Shown here: positions 12,743 to 24,002 of the stretch, in pieces
Layout of the letters: every line of letters starts with the position of its first letter
Numbering within the stretch: the stretch's first letter is position 1
DNA from: a virus
Length of the DNA stretch: 24,545 nt
Virus record (IMG/VR): IMGVR_UViG_3300021185_000113
Coordinates: 1 to 24,545 of that record
Strand: one strand, 5' to 3'
Notes under the pieces: model-generated
Database searches by the model: none
The model's input: the letters and a program-made list of their open reading frames with translations, nothing else
Told to the model about the DNA's origin: nothing
Translations under genes and position numbers: made by a program

Positions 12743-13339
12743 ATGGCTAGAACTAAACGAGCAAGTATCCATTATGTCAACAACAAAGAGTTCTCTCAAG
12801 CAGTTGTAGACTATGTACGTACTCTAAATGAGGCTCAAAAAGCAGAAACTAAACTACCTATTGTACCTAACTATATTGCATCTTGCTTTCTAAAGATCGC
12901 AGAAGGTCTCTCTCATAAGTCAAACTTTATTCGCTATACCTATCGTGAAGAGATGGTTATGGATGCAGTAGAGAATTGTCTTCGTGCGATTGATAACTAT
13001 AATATAGAAGCAGCTACTCGTACAGGTAATCCAAATGCATTCGCATACTTTACTCAGATCTCTTGGTATGCATTCCTTCGTCGTATTGCTAAAGAAAAGA
13101 AACAACAAGATGTTAAGATTAAGTTCTTATCTCAGAGTGGCTTAGAAGAGTATATCGCTACTAATCAAGATGATACTCACTCAGTACAGGTAGTTAGAGC
13201 GTTCGTTGATCAGCTTAAAGATCGTATTGATAAAGTAAAAGAGAAAGATGATGAAGTAAAAGTCTTTGCTCAAGAGGAAAAGAAACGTAAGAAGCGTAAT
13301 GTAAATGTTGATTCAGACTTAGGAGATTTTATAAAATGA
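12743..13339 (+). CDS. 55: Late-transcription sigma factor (gp55)
   Basis: gp55 is the small sigma-family factor that directs host RNA polymerase to TATAAATA late promoters, activated by the DNA-loaded gp45 clamp. The product has 198 residues (T4: 185). The core shows sigma region 2 features: YTYREEMVMDAVENCLRAIDNYN (about 65-94) followed by NPNAFAYFTQISWYAFLRRIAKEKKQ, close to the gp55 family. The C-terminus is Lys/Arg-rich and ends SDLGDFIK (191-198), resembling the SLEDFL-type clamp-binding tail of T4 gp55. The ribosome site is AAGGAA, 9 bases before the ATG. Its stop overlaps the epimerase start in an ATGA. The four late boxes in this window are its expected targets. Confidence 0.93.
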   Translation: MARTKRASIHYVNNKEFSQAVVDYVRTLNEAQKAETKLPIVPNYIASCFLKIAEGLSHKSNFIRYTYREEMVMDAVENCLRAIDNYNIEAATRTGNPNAFAYFTQISWYAFLRRIAKEKKQQDVKIKFLSQSGLEEYIATNQDDTHSVQVVRAFVDQLKDRIDKVKEKDDEVKVFAQEEKKRKKRNVNVDSDLGDFIK

Positions 13340-19497: not shown

Positions 19498-19534
19498 AGT
19501 TGCTTTCTAAAAAATAAAAACTATATATAATATA
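19498..19534 (+). promoter_or_regulatory. Promoter-like element before the hsp20 cassette
   Basis: AGTTGCTT (19498-19505) and TATAATATA (19526-19534) repeat the two elements seen before genes 55 and 43. TTGCTT to TATAAT spacing is 20 bases, 3 more than in the other two copies; TATATA at 19524 would give 18. It is 57 bases before the hsp20 ATG. Confidence 0.6.
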
Positions 19535-19590
19535 GCGATGCAGAATAATCTGGTCGCATATCAATCTTGCTTGCTCAAAAGGAGATAACA

Positions 19591-20061
19591 ATGACAGGCT
19601 TACAAACACTATTCCCCCGATCATCTTTCGTTGGTTTTGACCATCTGTTCAACGAACTAGAGTGGACAGCTAAACATGCTCAAGACCATTATCCCCCACA
19701 TAACATTATTAAACAAGGCGATGAGCAATATCTCATTGAATTGGCTATTGCGGGATTTACAAAGGAAGAGATCTCAGTAGAAGTTAAAGATAGAACTTTG
19801 ACTGTAAAAGGTGAACACGTTTCTAAAGGGAGAGAATTTATCCATCGTGGCATTTCGACAAAGAAATTTAAACGAACCTTTAGGCTGTCCGAACATGTAA
19901 ATGTAAACGGAGCAGACATTCAGGACGGAATTCTGGCAATTGAATTGCAGTATGTCATTCCTGAAGAAATGCGTCCTCGTAAAATCAATATTGGTCAAAC
20001 GAGGAAAACAAATGACACAACTAATACTAATACAAGCCAACTTCTTACAGAACGCAATTAG
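19591..20061 (+). CDS. hsp20: Small heat-shock protein Hsp20 (IbpA-like)
   Basis: A 156-residue alpha-crystallin-domain chaperone that would hold unfolding proteins. The N-terminus, LFPRSSFVGFDHLFNELE, is of the bacterial IbpA type. The crystallin domain runs from about 50 to 137: YLIELAIAGFTKEEISVEVKDRTLTVKGEH, then FKRTFRLSEHVNV and the signature GADIQDGILAIEL. The C-terminal KINI is the I-x-I type tail motif for oligomer contacts. The start is ATG 19591, behind AAAAGGAGATAAC; an in-frame TTG upstream is less likely. It has its own promoter-like element, and its last 50 bases overlap the DUF1127 gene. Hsp20 genes are common in marine T4-like phages. Confidence 0.92.
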   Translation: MTGLQTLFPRSSFVGFDHLFNELEWTAKHAQDHYPPHNIIKQGDEQYLIELAIAGFTKEEISVEVKDRTLTVKGEHVSKGREFIHRGISTKKFKRTFRLSEHVNVNGADIQDGILAIELQYVIPEEMRPRKINIGQTRKTNDTTNTNTSQLLTERN

Positions 20062-20242
20062 AGCTCTGTTAGATCTATTTAAAGACGCAAACTCATCACG
20101 CAAGGAAATGTCAACAGCTAGAAAGACTATTAAGGAGCTAAACAAGCTTTCTGATAAAGACTTACTAGACATCGGTATTTGTCGTGGAGACATCTGGAGT
20201 GTCGCTCATAATAAGACCGACGAATTAAGGAGACGTTTCTAA
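20012..20242 (+). CDS. DUF1127 (YjiS-like) small protein
   Basis: A 76-residue protein whose residues about 37-62 carry the DUF1127 signature: TIKELNKLSDKDLLDIGICRGDI, i.e. L-x-x-L-s-D-x-x-L-x-D-I-G-I-x-R-x-x-I. Small DUF1127 proteins are common in Alphaproteobacteria and have been linked there to RNA turnover and stress or nutrient responses; that function is family knowledge, not shown here. The N-terminal about 25 residues form a possible amphipathic helix. I chose ATG 20012 because GAGGA lies 7 bases upstream; it sits inside the end of hsp20 in another frame. The stop overlaps the next ATG by one base. It looks like a host-derived gene. Confidence 0.85.
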   Translation: MTQLILIQANFLQNAIRALLDLFKDANSSRKEMSTARKTIKELNKLSDKDLLDIGICRGDIWSVAHNKTDELRRRF

Positions 20243-20412
20243 TGACTGATGCAGTAATGAAATATGCCTTAGCACCTGTAGGTGGACTCTTTAGTGGATT
20301 TAATAGCTTCTTCCTATCATTAGGAAAAGCAAGAGCAGCATCTGAGCTTCATAGAATGGGTTACCATGAAGAAGCAAAGTATCTAATGCTGACTGACGCA
20401 AAAGACTTGTAA
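20242..20412 (+). CDS. Small protein, 56 aa, third gene of the hsp20 cassette
   Basis: A 56-residue frame starting ATG 20242 (TAATG overlap with DUF1127) and ending TAA 20410-20412, behind AAGGAGACG. The first half is a hydrophobic Gly/Phe-rich stretch (YALAPVGGLFSGFNSFFLSLG, quoted here as about residues 8-28) that could touch a membrane or be a buried helix; the second half is a helix with the pattern ARAASELHRMGYHEEAKYLM. I do not recognise a named family, though the 'A..L.RMG...EA..LM' pattern recalls small proteins next to DUF1127 genes in proteobacteria (impression only). A strong terminator follows 18 bases later. Confidence 0.75.
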   Translation: MTDAVMKYALAPVGGLFSGFNSFFLSLGKARAASELHRMGYHEEAKYLMLTDAKDL

Positions 20413-20430
20413 ATGTCAATACAACTATGA

Positions 20431-20460
20431 AAAGGGGCTGTTGTGGCCCCTTTCCCTTTT
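20431..20460 (+). terminator. Intrinsic terminator after the hsp20 cassette
   Basis: AAAGGGGC (20431-20438) pairs with GCCCCTTT (20446-20453) around a 7-base loop, followed by CCCTTTTTC. The 8-bp stem with a T-rich tail is a good intrinsic terminator. It closes the cassette just before the promoter of gene 43. Confidence 0.88.
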
Positions 20461-20521: not shown

Positions 20522-23047
20522 ATGAACTTTTATACAAGCGTTAATCGATATGGTAATAGTATTCTATACAGAGGTATAGAAGATGGAGAGCGTGTAGCTA
20601 AGAAGGTAAAGTATATGCCTACTTTGTTCGTTAACGCTACTCATGAGACTGGTTGGTATAATCTACAGAATCAACCTGTATTACCTAAGACGTTTGATAC
20701 TATGAGAGACGCTAAGGACTTTATGAAGCAGTACGAAGGTGTAGATAACTATACTGTATATGGTACTACTAACTATGTTACTCAATATATCAATGATCGC
20801 TTTCCTGATGCTCCTAAGTTTGATAGAGATAAAGTAAACGTTACTTCTATTGATATTGAGGTAGCTTCTGACGAAGGCTTTCCGTTCGTAGAGCAAGCAG
20901 CTCATCCTGTTATCTCTATCACGATGAAAAATAATATAGATAATATATATCGAGTATGGGGACTATATGACTACAATGAAGACGATTGCACAGTTGAAGG
21001 CGTTGACGCTATCCAATATATCAAGTGTAAGGACGAGATTGATCTTCTATTATCTTGGCTGGCTTACTGGCACGATCCAAAGTATTGCCCCGATATTGTT
21101 ACTGGCTGGAACACTCGTCTATTTGATTTCCCATATCTCATCAACAGGGTAAAGAATATCATAGGCGGTGATGTCTATAAGAAGTTCTCTCCTTGGGGTA
21201 TAGTAGATCAACGAAACATTATGATGGCTCGTGGAGAAGTAATTGCATACGAGATGGCTGGTATTCAGCAGTTAGATTACTATGACTTGTTTACTAAATT
21301 CGGTTATACTTACGGTATGCAGGAGTCATATAAACTAGATCATATAGCGCACGTAGTACTGGGAGAGCGTAAGCTCTCCTATGATGAGCATGGTTCTCTG
21401 CATGGATTATACAAGCATGACTTTCAGAAGTTCATTGACTATAATATAAAAGACGTTCAGATTGTTGATAGACTAGAAGAGAAGATGGGCTTAATTACGC
21501 TTGCTATGACTATGGCTTATAGGGGTGGAGTTAACTATTCAGAGACTTTCGGTACTGTGCAGATCTGGGACTCTATTCTATATCGTTTACTATTCAAGCA
21601 GCAGATAGCTTGCCCTCCTAAGTTTAGTAAAGAGAAGGTTCCTTATCCTGGAGCGTATGTTAAAGATCCTCAGACTGGTATGCATGACTGGGTAGTATCT
21701 TTTGACCTTAACTCTCTCTATCCTATGATTATTGTTCAGTATAATATGAGTCCTGAGACTGTATTGCCTGGCAAAGAGCATCTAGGATTAGATCCTGTAG
21801 AGAAACTCTTGAGTGATGCTGAGGTTAATATACCTGAAGGTACTACTATGGCTGCCTCGGGTGTTAAGTTTAGTAAAGATCAGGTAGGTATTATTCCTGC
21901 TATCATTAAGCAGTACTATAACGAACGTAGACTTATTAAGAAAGCTATGCTTGATACTAAGCAAGAGTATGAGAATACTCCTACTAAGCGTCTAGAGAAT
22001 AAGATGACTATCTTAGAGAATCAACAGATGTCTATTAAGATTCTTATGAACTCTTTGTATGGTGCTCTAGGTAATAAGCATTTCCGTTACTTTAATAATC
22101 ACGTTGCAGAAGCTATTACTACTTCAGGTCAGTTATCTATTCGTTGGGCTGAGAATGCTATCAATAAAGAGATGAATGCTGCTCTAGAGACTGACGATAA
22201 AGACTATGTGATTGCTATTGATACTGATTCGTTGTATGTGAATATGAATGAGCTTGTTAAGAAGTTTAATCCTAAAGATCCTGTTAAGTTCTTAGATAAG
22301 ATATGTCGTGAGCATTTCGAAGGTGTACTAGAGAAGTCATATGCTGTACTGGCTAAGAAGCTAGACGTTATGGAAAATCGTATGGAGATGTCTCGTGAGG
22401 TTATTGCTAACCGAGGTGTATGGATTGCTAAGAAGCGTTATATCTTAAACGTTCATAATAACGAAGGTGTGCAGTATGCTGAACCTAAGATGAAGATGAT
22501 GGGCGTAGATGCTGTACGCTCTTCTACTCCTCAGGTCTGTCGTGATAAGTTTAAGAAGATATTTAAGGTTATTATTGACGAAGGTGAGACTGCTACTCAA
22601 AGGTTTATTGCTGACTTCAAGAAGGAATGGAAGCAGCTTCCTCCTGAGTCTGTATCGTTTCCTAGAGGATGTAATATATCTAAGAAGAAGGACGGTGTAC
22701 CTTTTACTTGGGCTGATAAGAAAACGATCTATAAGAAAGCTTGTCCTATTCATGTAAGAGGTGCTCTGTTATATAATCATTATATAAAGCAAGCTGGCCT
22801 AGATCAGAAGTATGAGCTAGTACAGAACGGTGAGAAGATTAAGTTCGTCTATCTTAAGACTCCTAACTCTATAAAGGAGAACGTTATTGCTTATGCTAAC
22901 GATCTACCTAAAGAGCTTGACTTACATCGATTTGTAGACTATAATAAGCAATATGAGAAAGCATTCGTTGACCCTATCAAGCATCTACTCGATGCTCTTA
23001 ACTGGGATGTTGAACCTGTAGCTACGTTGGAGGACTTCTTTGTATAG
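20522..23047 (+). CDS. 43: DNA polymerase (gp43), family B with 3'-5' exonuclease
   Basis: The replicative polymerase, 841 residues (T4: 898). Proofreading motifs are complete: Exo I SIDIEVAS (Asp111, Glu113), Exo II TGWNTRLFDFPYL (Asn197, Asp202) and Exo III YNIKD (Tyr307, Asp311). Polymerase motifs are complete: motif A FDLNSLYPMII (Asp395), motif B KILMNSLYGALGN (Lys506, Tyr513, Gly514) and motif C IDTDSLYV (Asp567, Asp569). The C-terminus ends TLEDFFV, a clamp-binding type tail similar to that of gp55 and to the end of T4 gp43. A GGAGG ribosome site lies 7 bases upstream. It has its own promoter, and the next gene starts two bases after its stop. Confidence 0.98.
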   Translation: MNFYTSVNRYGNSILYRGIEDGERVAKKVKYMPTLFVNATHETGWYNLQNQPVLPKTFDTMRDAKDFMKQYEGVDNYTVYGTTNYVTQYINDRFPDAPKFDRDKVNVTSIDIEVASDEGFPFVEQAAHPVISITMKNNIDNIYRVWGLYDYNEDDCTVEGVDAIQYIKCKDEIDLLLSWLAYWHDPKYCPDIVTGWNTRLFDFPYLINRVKNIIGGDVYKKFSPWGIVDQRNIMMARGEVIAYEMAGIQQLDYYDLFTKFGYTYGMQESYKLDHIAHVVLGERKLSYDEHGSLHGLYKHDFQKFIDYNIKDVQIVDRLEEKMGLITLAMTMAYRGGVNYSETFGTVQIWDSILYRLLFKQQIACPPKFSKEKVPYPGAYVKDPQTGMHDWVVSFDLNSLYPMIIVQYNMSPETVLPGKEHLGLDPVEKLLSDAEVNIPEGTTMAASGVKFSKDQVGIIPAIIKQYYNERRLIKKAMLDTKQEYENTPTKRLENKMTILENQQMSIKILMNSLYGALGNKHFRYFNNHVAEAITTSGQLSIRWAENAINKEMNAALETDDKDYVIAIDTDSLYVNMNELVKKFNPKDPVKFLDKICREHFEGVLEKSYAVLAKKLDVMENRMEMSREVIANRGVWIAKKRYILNVHNNEGVQYAEPKMKMMGVDAVRSSTPQVCRDKFKKIFKVIIDEGETATQRFIADFKKEWKQLPPESVSFPRGCNISKKKDGVPFTWADKKTIYKKACPIHVRGALLYNHYIKQAGLDQKYELVQNGEKIKFVYLKTPNSIKENVIAYANDLPKELDLHRFVDYNKQYEKAFVDPIKHLLDALNWDVEPVATLEDFFV

Positions 23048-23048
23048 T

Positions 23049-24002
23049 ATGACAATATTTAAGTCTCCTAGATGGTGGGACGCTCAGAATAGATTTGTAT
23101 ATGATAATAAGACTCATAGACGAATGGACTTTGACTCATGGGATAAGTTTACTTTGTTTCTATATAAACTATCTAAGAGAAAGCTTAACGGTAAGCAAGA
23201 CGCAGAGTTAATTACTCCTGCTATATTCAAGCCTGATACTACTCGTAAGAACGAGAACGTTATTCAATGGTCTGGATGGGCAGCAGTAGATGTAGATGAT
23301 CTAGTAATTGAAGGAGACCTAGAAGATGTTTTACGTGATCGTTTTGGTGAATATGATTATGTGGTGTATAGTACTGCTTCAAGTACGGATGATCATCCAA
23401 AGTTTCGGATTGTATTCAATACTGACACACCGATTGTGGCAACTAAACTTCGTCACTTCTGGTACGCTCTTAACCAAGAGCTCAACGAAATTGGAGATGC
23501 ACAGACTAAAGACCTTGCTAGGATGTACTACATACCAGCGGACTATGATGGTGCTAGTAACTTCTTTTACCGTAATAGTGGCGAGCCTATTGACTTGGCT
23601 GTCCTTCTTGCCAAGTGGCCATATGATGATAGTAGAAATGCTCAGTCTTTTCTCGATAGACTACCTCCTGCTTTTAGAGAGCAAGTTATAGAGTATCGTA
23701 AAGGTAAACTAGATAATACTAACTTCGTATGGACGTCATATAGAGATTGTCCTTTCTGGCCTAAGAATCTAGCTGTAGAGTATATCTCTATATCAGGTAC
23801 TGGTTGGTATAGACAGATGTATCGTATAATGATTGCTGTAGCTGGAAAGGCTATAGAAAAAGGATATCCTATTACGGCTACTCAGATAGTAGAGCTATGT
23901 CGTCAATTCGATATAGAGACTGGTAAATGGTATGAGAATAGACCTATGGAGGTAGAAGCGAATAACGCATTAGAATACGCATATAAAAACGGAACAGTAT
24001 AA
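23049..24002 (+). CDS. Archaeo-eukaryotic-primase-like protein (candidate)
   Basis: A 317-residue protein right after the polymerase. The middle shows the layout of AEP/PrimPol-type catalytic domains: a strand with the Asp pair WAAVDVDD (Asp81, Asp83), then YDYVVYSTASSTDDHPKFRIVF (about 102-123) with the Ser/Thr-rich loop, His116 and Arg120, and KDLARMYYIPADYDG (154-168) with the Asp-x-x-Arg helix. The C-terminal part is helical (MYRIMIAVAGKAIEKGYPITATQIVELCRQFD). T4 uses the unrelated DnaG-type gp61, whose gene is not in this window. It could be a primase, a primase-derived replication protein or a homologue without activity. I use ATG 23049; a TTG at 23040 would add three residues. Confidence 0.65.
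   Translation: MTIFKSPRWWDAQNRFVYDNKTHRRMDFDSWDKFTLFLYKLSKRKLNGKQDAELITPAIFKPDTTRKNENVIQWSGWAAVDVDDLVIEGDLEDVLRDRFGEYDYVVYSTASSTDDHPKFRIVFNTDTPIVATKLRHFWYALNQELNEIGDAQTKDLARMYYIPADYDGASNFFYRNSGEPIDLAVLLAKWPYDDSRNAQSFLDRLPPAFREQVIEYRKGKLDNTNFVWTSYRDCPFWPKNLAVEYISISGTGWYRQMYRIMIAVAGKAIEKGYPITATQIVELCRQFDIETGKWYENRPMEVEANNALEYAYKNGTV

Follow-up and report, generated by a model that had tools for sequence, protein, structure and literature searches.

A candidate temperature-gated hsp20 operon with exchangeable small genes between regA and gene 43 of T4-like phages

In a lineage of marine T4-like phages, the gene encoding a small heat-shock protein (hsp20) is found between regA and gene 43, where it is preceded by a structured leader that resembles the ROSE thermometers of bacteria. 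The locus can be read as an operon composed of a TATAAATA-type promoter, a ROSE-type thermometer, hsp20, two overlapping small genes and a terminator. It is proposed here, with a probability of about two in three, that this is a late, temperature-gated chaperone operon that carries interchangeable small regulators. At low temperature, the leader would pair with the Shine-Dalgarno sequence of hsp20 and limit its translation. Warming, or another loosening of the hairpin, would open the Shine-Dalgarno sequence, and the chaperone would be made in the heat-stressed infected cell. Each small gene begins within, or right at the end of, the preceding gene, so that its translation would probably follow that of hsp20. 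The interchangeable pairs may represent host- or phage-specific regulators that work as a pair.

The proposed operon at the regA-gene 43 junction

The window, which is the whole stretch of DNA that was analyzed (24,545 nucleotides), is a 24.5-kb IMG/VR fragment of a T4-like phage. It carries virion genes (tail sheath, tube, portal, protease, scaffold and major head protein), the gene encoding the late sigma factor gp55, gp46, and then gp45-44-62-regA and DNA polymerase. The gap between regA and gene 43 holds hsp20, a gene encoding a DUF1127 protein, and the gene encoding p56 (Table 1). An earlier note on this DNA had described a self-contained cassette of three overlapping genes, among them a chaperone gene and a DUF1127 gene, closed by a strong terminator, and this description is borne out. 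All three open reading frames are present, with overlaps of 50 nt (hsp20/DUF1127) and UAAUG (DUF1127/p56), and they stand between a late-type promoter with a structured leader and a terminator. The Hsp20 protein matches PF00011 at 63.7 bits over residues 40-134 (cut-off 20.8) and has the C-terminal I-N-I (IxI) motif within RPRKINIG. The DUF1127 protein matches PF06568 at 33.3 bits (cut-off 23.3). Of 107 loci, 62 have an equivalent terminator behind the second small gene, compared with 4% in shuffled sequences. The gene after gene 43 (23040-24002) matches phage primase families (phrog_9765, 4e-41), an unusual neighbor in T4-like phages.

Table 1. Features of the window that bear on the proposed operon
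Feature	Position	Strand	Support
gp55 late sigma factor	12743-13339		phrog_234 3.4e-51
T4-late-type promoter element TATATATA (consensus TATAAATA)	19522..19529	+	7/8 match
ROSE-like RNA thermometer candidate, whole element (R1)	19523..19593	+	R1 82.3 bits, E 1.8e-20
Hairpin I of the leader	19535..19557	+	96 double-sided pair changes vs 29.6 in shuffles
Hairpin II, AUCUU(G)CUU predicted to pair with AAGGAGAU, Shine-Dalgarno closed, bulged G	19564..19586	+	
hsp20, small heat-shock protein, 156 aa	19591..20061	+	PF00011 1.9e-17; phrog_432 3.4e-36
DUF1127 protein, 76 aa, start inside hsp20	20012..20242	+	PF06568 4e-8; overlap conserved
p56, 56-aa protein, new family, core GxxRAAxELxRxGxxxEA	20242..20412	+	at least 95 distinct relatives
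Intrinsic terminator, T-rich tail after	20431..20453	+	10 pairs; z -2.3

A megablast search of the cassette region against named phages returned no match. For the comparison of relatives, searches with four proteins (polymerase, Hsp20, DUF1127 and p56) supplied 180 non-redundant contig stretches, the least biased sample being the 48 regA-carrying loci retrieved by the polymerase alone. hsp20 lies between regA and gp43 in 86 of the 87 loci that have both flanks, and it was found in 47 of the 48 polymerase-only loci. Its presence at the regA-43 junction is therefore the rule in this lineage, and not an interruption of an otherwise conserved junction, as the earlier note had described it. Dozens of phage contigs show the order hsp20-DUF1127-p56, which the earlier note had proposed to seek in relatives, at the regA-gene 43 junction, and the overlaps are conserved there; of the 82 measurable loci, 81 have the DUF1127 start inside hsp20, 25-46 nt from the end of its coding sequence. 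All three genes are present in 17 of the 48 polymerase-only loci, and the DUF1127+p56 pair is one of several contents of the junction. An extra 260-aa gene separates regA from the leader in one locus (L264, 2469-3251), and additional genes occupy the same interval in another (L085, about 896-2955); the leader and the operon are intact in both.

Relatives of hsp20 were found in 508 phage records, mostly of cyanophages, in which hsp20 is a core gene (PMC3037559). The hsp20 of T4-like cyanophages belongs to the orthologous family phrog_432, lies near regA or gene 43 (regA adjoins hsp20 in S-CAM1 and S-B68, too) and has the same type of leader. Unlike in the window, no DUF1127+p56 pair stands behind it in the cyanophage records examined.

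The promoter of the operon is likely the T4-late-type element TATATATA, rather than the promoter-like element placed by the earlier note at 19498, a -35-like hexamer with a 20-nt spacer that was absent from the scan. Among 98 homologous leaders, an exact TATAAATA was found in 42 (0.8 expected from shuffles) and a match of at least 7/8 in 86 (11.6 expected). Exact copies also precede the tail sheath (662) and portal (3007) genes of the window. Since T4-type late promoters combine this motif with gp55, and gp55 is encoded in the window, late transcription is indicated. The position of the motif suggests that the transcript probably starts near hairpin I. Late transcription fits a chaperone needed during virion production. 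One cyanophage Hsp20 behaves as a true chaperone in vitro (PMC5028025), and a scaffolding role has been proposed for cyanophage hsp20 (PMC3037559).

The hsp20 leader and its likeness to ROSE thermometers

The 100 bases before hsp20 show an odd conservation in which changes come in pairs. In an alignment of 57 distinct leaders, made by sequence alone, hairpin I is paired in 88.9% of cells, and its covariation score is 0.485, compared with 0.206 in shuffled leaders and no more than 0.128 after sliding of the partner strand. In hairpin II, UCUUGCUU pairs with AAGGAGA, and one G is bulged. This hairpin is paired in 94.1% of cells (at most 71% when slid) and has 16 double-sided changes (5.0 when shuffled); the stability of hairpin II alone is not above that of shuffles (z -0.76).

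A covariance model, R1, was built from the 57 leaders. The next best match in the window after the leader scores 12.5 bits. A scan of 79 loci (728 kb), most of which had contributed to the model, gave 42 matches; all 42 end exactly at the ATG of an Hsp20 open reading frame, and none lies elsewhere. An independent test was performed on fifteen phage loci outside the training set (cyanophages, pelagiphages and a Sinorhizobium jumbo phage), and the best match was at the hsp20 start in 14 of them. Nine E values are at or below 1.1e-5: C48C1 (7.5e-11), S-SM1 (3.4e-7), pelagiphage HTVC103P (9.4e-7), and, at or below about 1e-5, Syn30, S-H35, S-RIM12, P-SSM3, P-SSM4 and S-CREM1. P-RSM4 gave 5.8e-4, Phosso and S-B68 gave values near 0.01, the matches in HTVC115P and S-CAM1 are weak (0.05 and 0.15 being the two weak values), and S-CAM3 had no match.

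ROSE thermometers (Rfam RF00435, ROSE_2 and RF02523 ROSE_3) likewise lie in the 5' leader of a small heat-shock protein gene, end at the start codon, and pair a UYGCU strand with the Shine-Dalgarno sequence around a bulged G. The U(U/C)GCU columns are invariant or nearly so in the 57 leaders, with UUGCU in most and UCGCU in one type (that of L047) and in the cyanophages. The additional upstream hairpin of ROSE has its counterpart in hairpin I with its strong covariation, and the upstream hairpin shape GAUGC...GGUC is common to ROSE_3 and the phage leader. The ROSE_3 model itself matches the window at 19532-19596 with 28.1 bits (E 0.0029), under its gathering score of 43, and its scores for L119, L176 and Melnitz are 34-37 bits (best relative 36.8). 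No Rfam ROSE match in the window or its relatives is above the cut-off of 43, and twelve of the fifteen independent loci, cyanophage leaders included, had no match to the Rfam ROSE models. Since the Rfam threshold is a rule of curation and not of biology, the element is called ROSE-like here, and it is very likely either homologous to ROSE or built like it. The phage element differs from bacterial ROSE in that it is found in lytic phages, is shorter and scores below the Rfam cut-off, stands behind a late promoter and not a heat-shock promoter, and has two small regulatory genes downstream. Derivation of the leader from present-day Alphaproteobacteria was considered and rejected: under strict filters ROSE_3 found nothing above the cut-off in 240 genomes, and the two hits before hsp20 in these genomes are both on phage contigs inside a MAG.

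The effect of temperature was predicted with an energy model. For the leader alone, the predicted open fraction of the Shine-Dalgarno sequence rises from 6% at 5 C through 14% at 35 C to 34% at 55 C, compared with 35% to 46% when the upstream sequence is shuffled. When 9 or 18 coding bases are added, most leaders favor a start-codon helix (GCUUG with CAGGC) in the model, and the Shine-Dalgarno sequence is freed. The energy model does not include the non-canonical pairs known from ROSE; the objection raised by the start-codon helix is therefore not decisive, though it is real. The leader probably acts as a thermometer. The stress role suggested in the earlier note is strengthened unexpectedly by a ROSE-type leader that the note had not mentioned, and a response to temperature would be expected of such a leader. 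Many loci conserve the first codons of hsp20, ATGACAGGC, whose possible pairing with the leader GCUUG would give an alternative helix that covers the start codon.

RNA thermometers have also been described in the phage leaders of lambda cIII and SP-beta blyA (fourU), which belong to other structural classes and genes. According to a 2023 paper, its own phage RNA thermometer had only a single described predecessor (PMC10586365). A limited search of open-access literature turned up no ROSE-type element reported from a phage.

Exchangeable pairs and competing explanations

Loci that first seemed to carry hsp20 only were found mostly to have another small-gene pair in the slot behind it, with an overlap of like kind. 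In this alternative pair, the first gene encodes an unnamed protein (motif A..VA.....EYP) and the second a DUF3563 protein (PF12086), two members of which score 37.2 and 28.0 bits, over the cut-off of 26.9, while other members fall below it. The unnamed protein and the DUF1127 proteins share their N-terminus, the part encoded inside hsp20, and therefore differ mainly in the C-terminal domain. Because this N-terminus is common, the profile of the unnamed protein also caught DUF1127, and the pair counts rest on the second gene of the pair. Counted in this way, the slot holds DUF1127+p56 in 68 loci, the unnamed protein+DUF3563 in 14, and a mixed pair in none. The state changes between pairs number four on the regA tree and three on the hsp20 tree, both of which are short and poorly supported, so that the number of independent exchanges is rough. 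DUF1127 and p56 also occur together without hsp20, in either order (Melnitz), and p56 occurs with DUF3563 in two loci without hsp20; the families are therefore not tied to one partner everywhere. Five loci with no hsp20 nearby (L113, L120, L124, L128 and L158) have the arrangement DUF1127 - p56 - DUF1127 with two different DUF1127 genes. In C48C1 (L001, 4437-4541) and in L075 (4746-4919), a short membrane-like peptide overlaps the end of hsp20 and takes the place of either pair.

DNA identity across the region forms a mosaic. L106 shares 84-99% identity with the window in the cassette, 51% in the p56-gp43 spacer, and 46% in gp43 at the protein level. In many loci, identity to the window is 92-96% in the 3' half of hsp20, about 60% in the pair behind it and about 75% in regA. 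This pattern fits hsp20 serving as an anchor for the homologous exchange of the genes behind it. The idea of a transferable module is partly supported by this mosaic. It does not stand for a fixed trio, as the genes are not always together and either another pair follows hsp20 or DUF1127+p56 occurs without it.

Could the locus be a mosaic neighborhood, in which a conserved hsp20 anchors recombination and brings along unrelated small genes that have no function in common? The high identity of the hsp20 3' half between flanks of about 60-75% would be expected, as would the fact that all three families occur apart as well. This reading is nonetheless considered unlikely, since the gene overlaps are conserved, each pair is exchanged as a unit, unmixed, at the slot behind hsp20, and DUF1127 and p56 are adjacent even without hsp20. 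A similarly low probability is given to the view that the leader is a structured translational operator or an mRNA-stability element that binds RegA, the DUF1127 protein or a host factor and senses no temperature. The strongest covariation does lie in hairpin I, away from the Shine-Dalgarno sequence, the probable transcript start near this hairpin is reminiscent of a 5' stabilizing hairpin, and a bacterial DUF1127 protein, CcaF1, binds RNA (PMC10253847). However, the anti-Shine-Dalgarno strand and its bulged G are nearly invariant, which is the signature of ROSE, and the element is also found where hsp20 has no DUF1127 gene behind it, as in the cyanophages. Quite improbable is an early host-takeover module, as suggested in the earlier note, whose small proteins would reprogram host RNA or signaling soon after infection. 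Such a role would agree with the action of DUF1127 relatives on RNA turnover or PhoR in bacteria, and an exchange of pairs is expected of host-adapted effectors. It is disfavored by the late-type promoter, whose motif also precedes the tail sheath and portal genes, and by the presence of gp55 in the window.

The reading of the locus as a late, temperature-gated chaperone operon has a wider and more tentative extension. Lytic marine phages as a whole class, whether they infect cyanobacteria, Alphaproteobacteria or methylotrophs, might control their chaperone gene by an RNA thermometer. In one lineage the thermometer might also gate, by way of the gene overlaps, the interchangeable pairs of host-like small regulatory proteins (DUF1127+p56 or the unnamed protein+DUF3563), in which case the regulation of the host by the phage would depend on sea temperature. 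For two decades, to our knowledge, cyanophage hsp20 has stood among the core genes with no known role. If true, a conserved thermometer ahead of this gene would tell when the gene is used and would link infection by phages to the temperature of the water. Very few RNA thermometers are known from phages (PMC10586365). The unmixed pairs give p56 and DUF3563, both without function, a candidate partner.

The DUF1127 and p56 proteins

The DUF1127 protein of the window has the same core, LxxLxDxxLxDIGIxRGDI, as CcaF1 of Rhodobacter sphaeroides, a small alphaproteobacterial DUF1127 protein, and both are small and encoded in stress-linked operons. In contrast to CcaF1, it is phage-borne, its gene overlaps hsp20, and it is paired with p56. 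In addition to binding RNA, CcaF1 has been shown to affect RNase E-dependent maturation (PMC10253847). Another bacterial DUF1127 protein binds the sensor kinase PhoR (PMC12501420), and the Salmonella DUF1127 protein YjiS was reported not to bind RNA (PMC11707872). By analogy, RNA turnover or a sensor kinase is a plausible target of the phage DUF1127 protein.

p56 matched no family in Pfam, NCBIfam or PHROG. Going by these and the genome searches, it is a new family, so far on phage contigs only. Two other origins were rejected: p56 as a diverged DUF1127 protein (profile comparison probability 1.1%) and p56 as a host gene, for which one of 66 pattern matches was confirmed in 84,980 species genomes, on a phage contig. 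A further 295 genomes of the Rhodobacteraceae family gave three weak matches only (E 0.002-0.005), and none was seen outside phage contigs in Rhodobacteraceae genomes. In one metagenomic bin, Rhodobacteraceae bacterium Water_Bin34 (GTDB, G001), hits to p56 or to the ROSE-like element were found on six contigs (L265-L268, L272 and L273). These contigs look phage-derived, being AT-rich and several of them carrying T4-like genes, so that the bin would mix in phage DNA or infected cells.

The AlphaFold models of p56 and of the DUF1127 protein are all-helical and of low confidence (pLDDT 67). The N-terminal half of p56 is hydrophobic or amphipathic, and a conserved helical hairpin is predicted in the low-confidence model. 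A C-terminal motif, NLKGWV (or NLRGWV/I), is common to DUF1127 and DUF3563-like proteins (L033, L021, L188 and many DUF1127 proteins). Before p56, NLKGWV also encodes a Shine-Dalgarno-like AAAGG; the motif is kept where no gene overlaps, and it may therefore be a protein signal.
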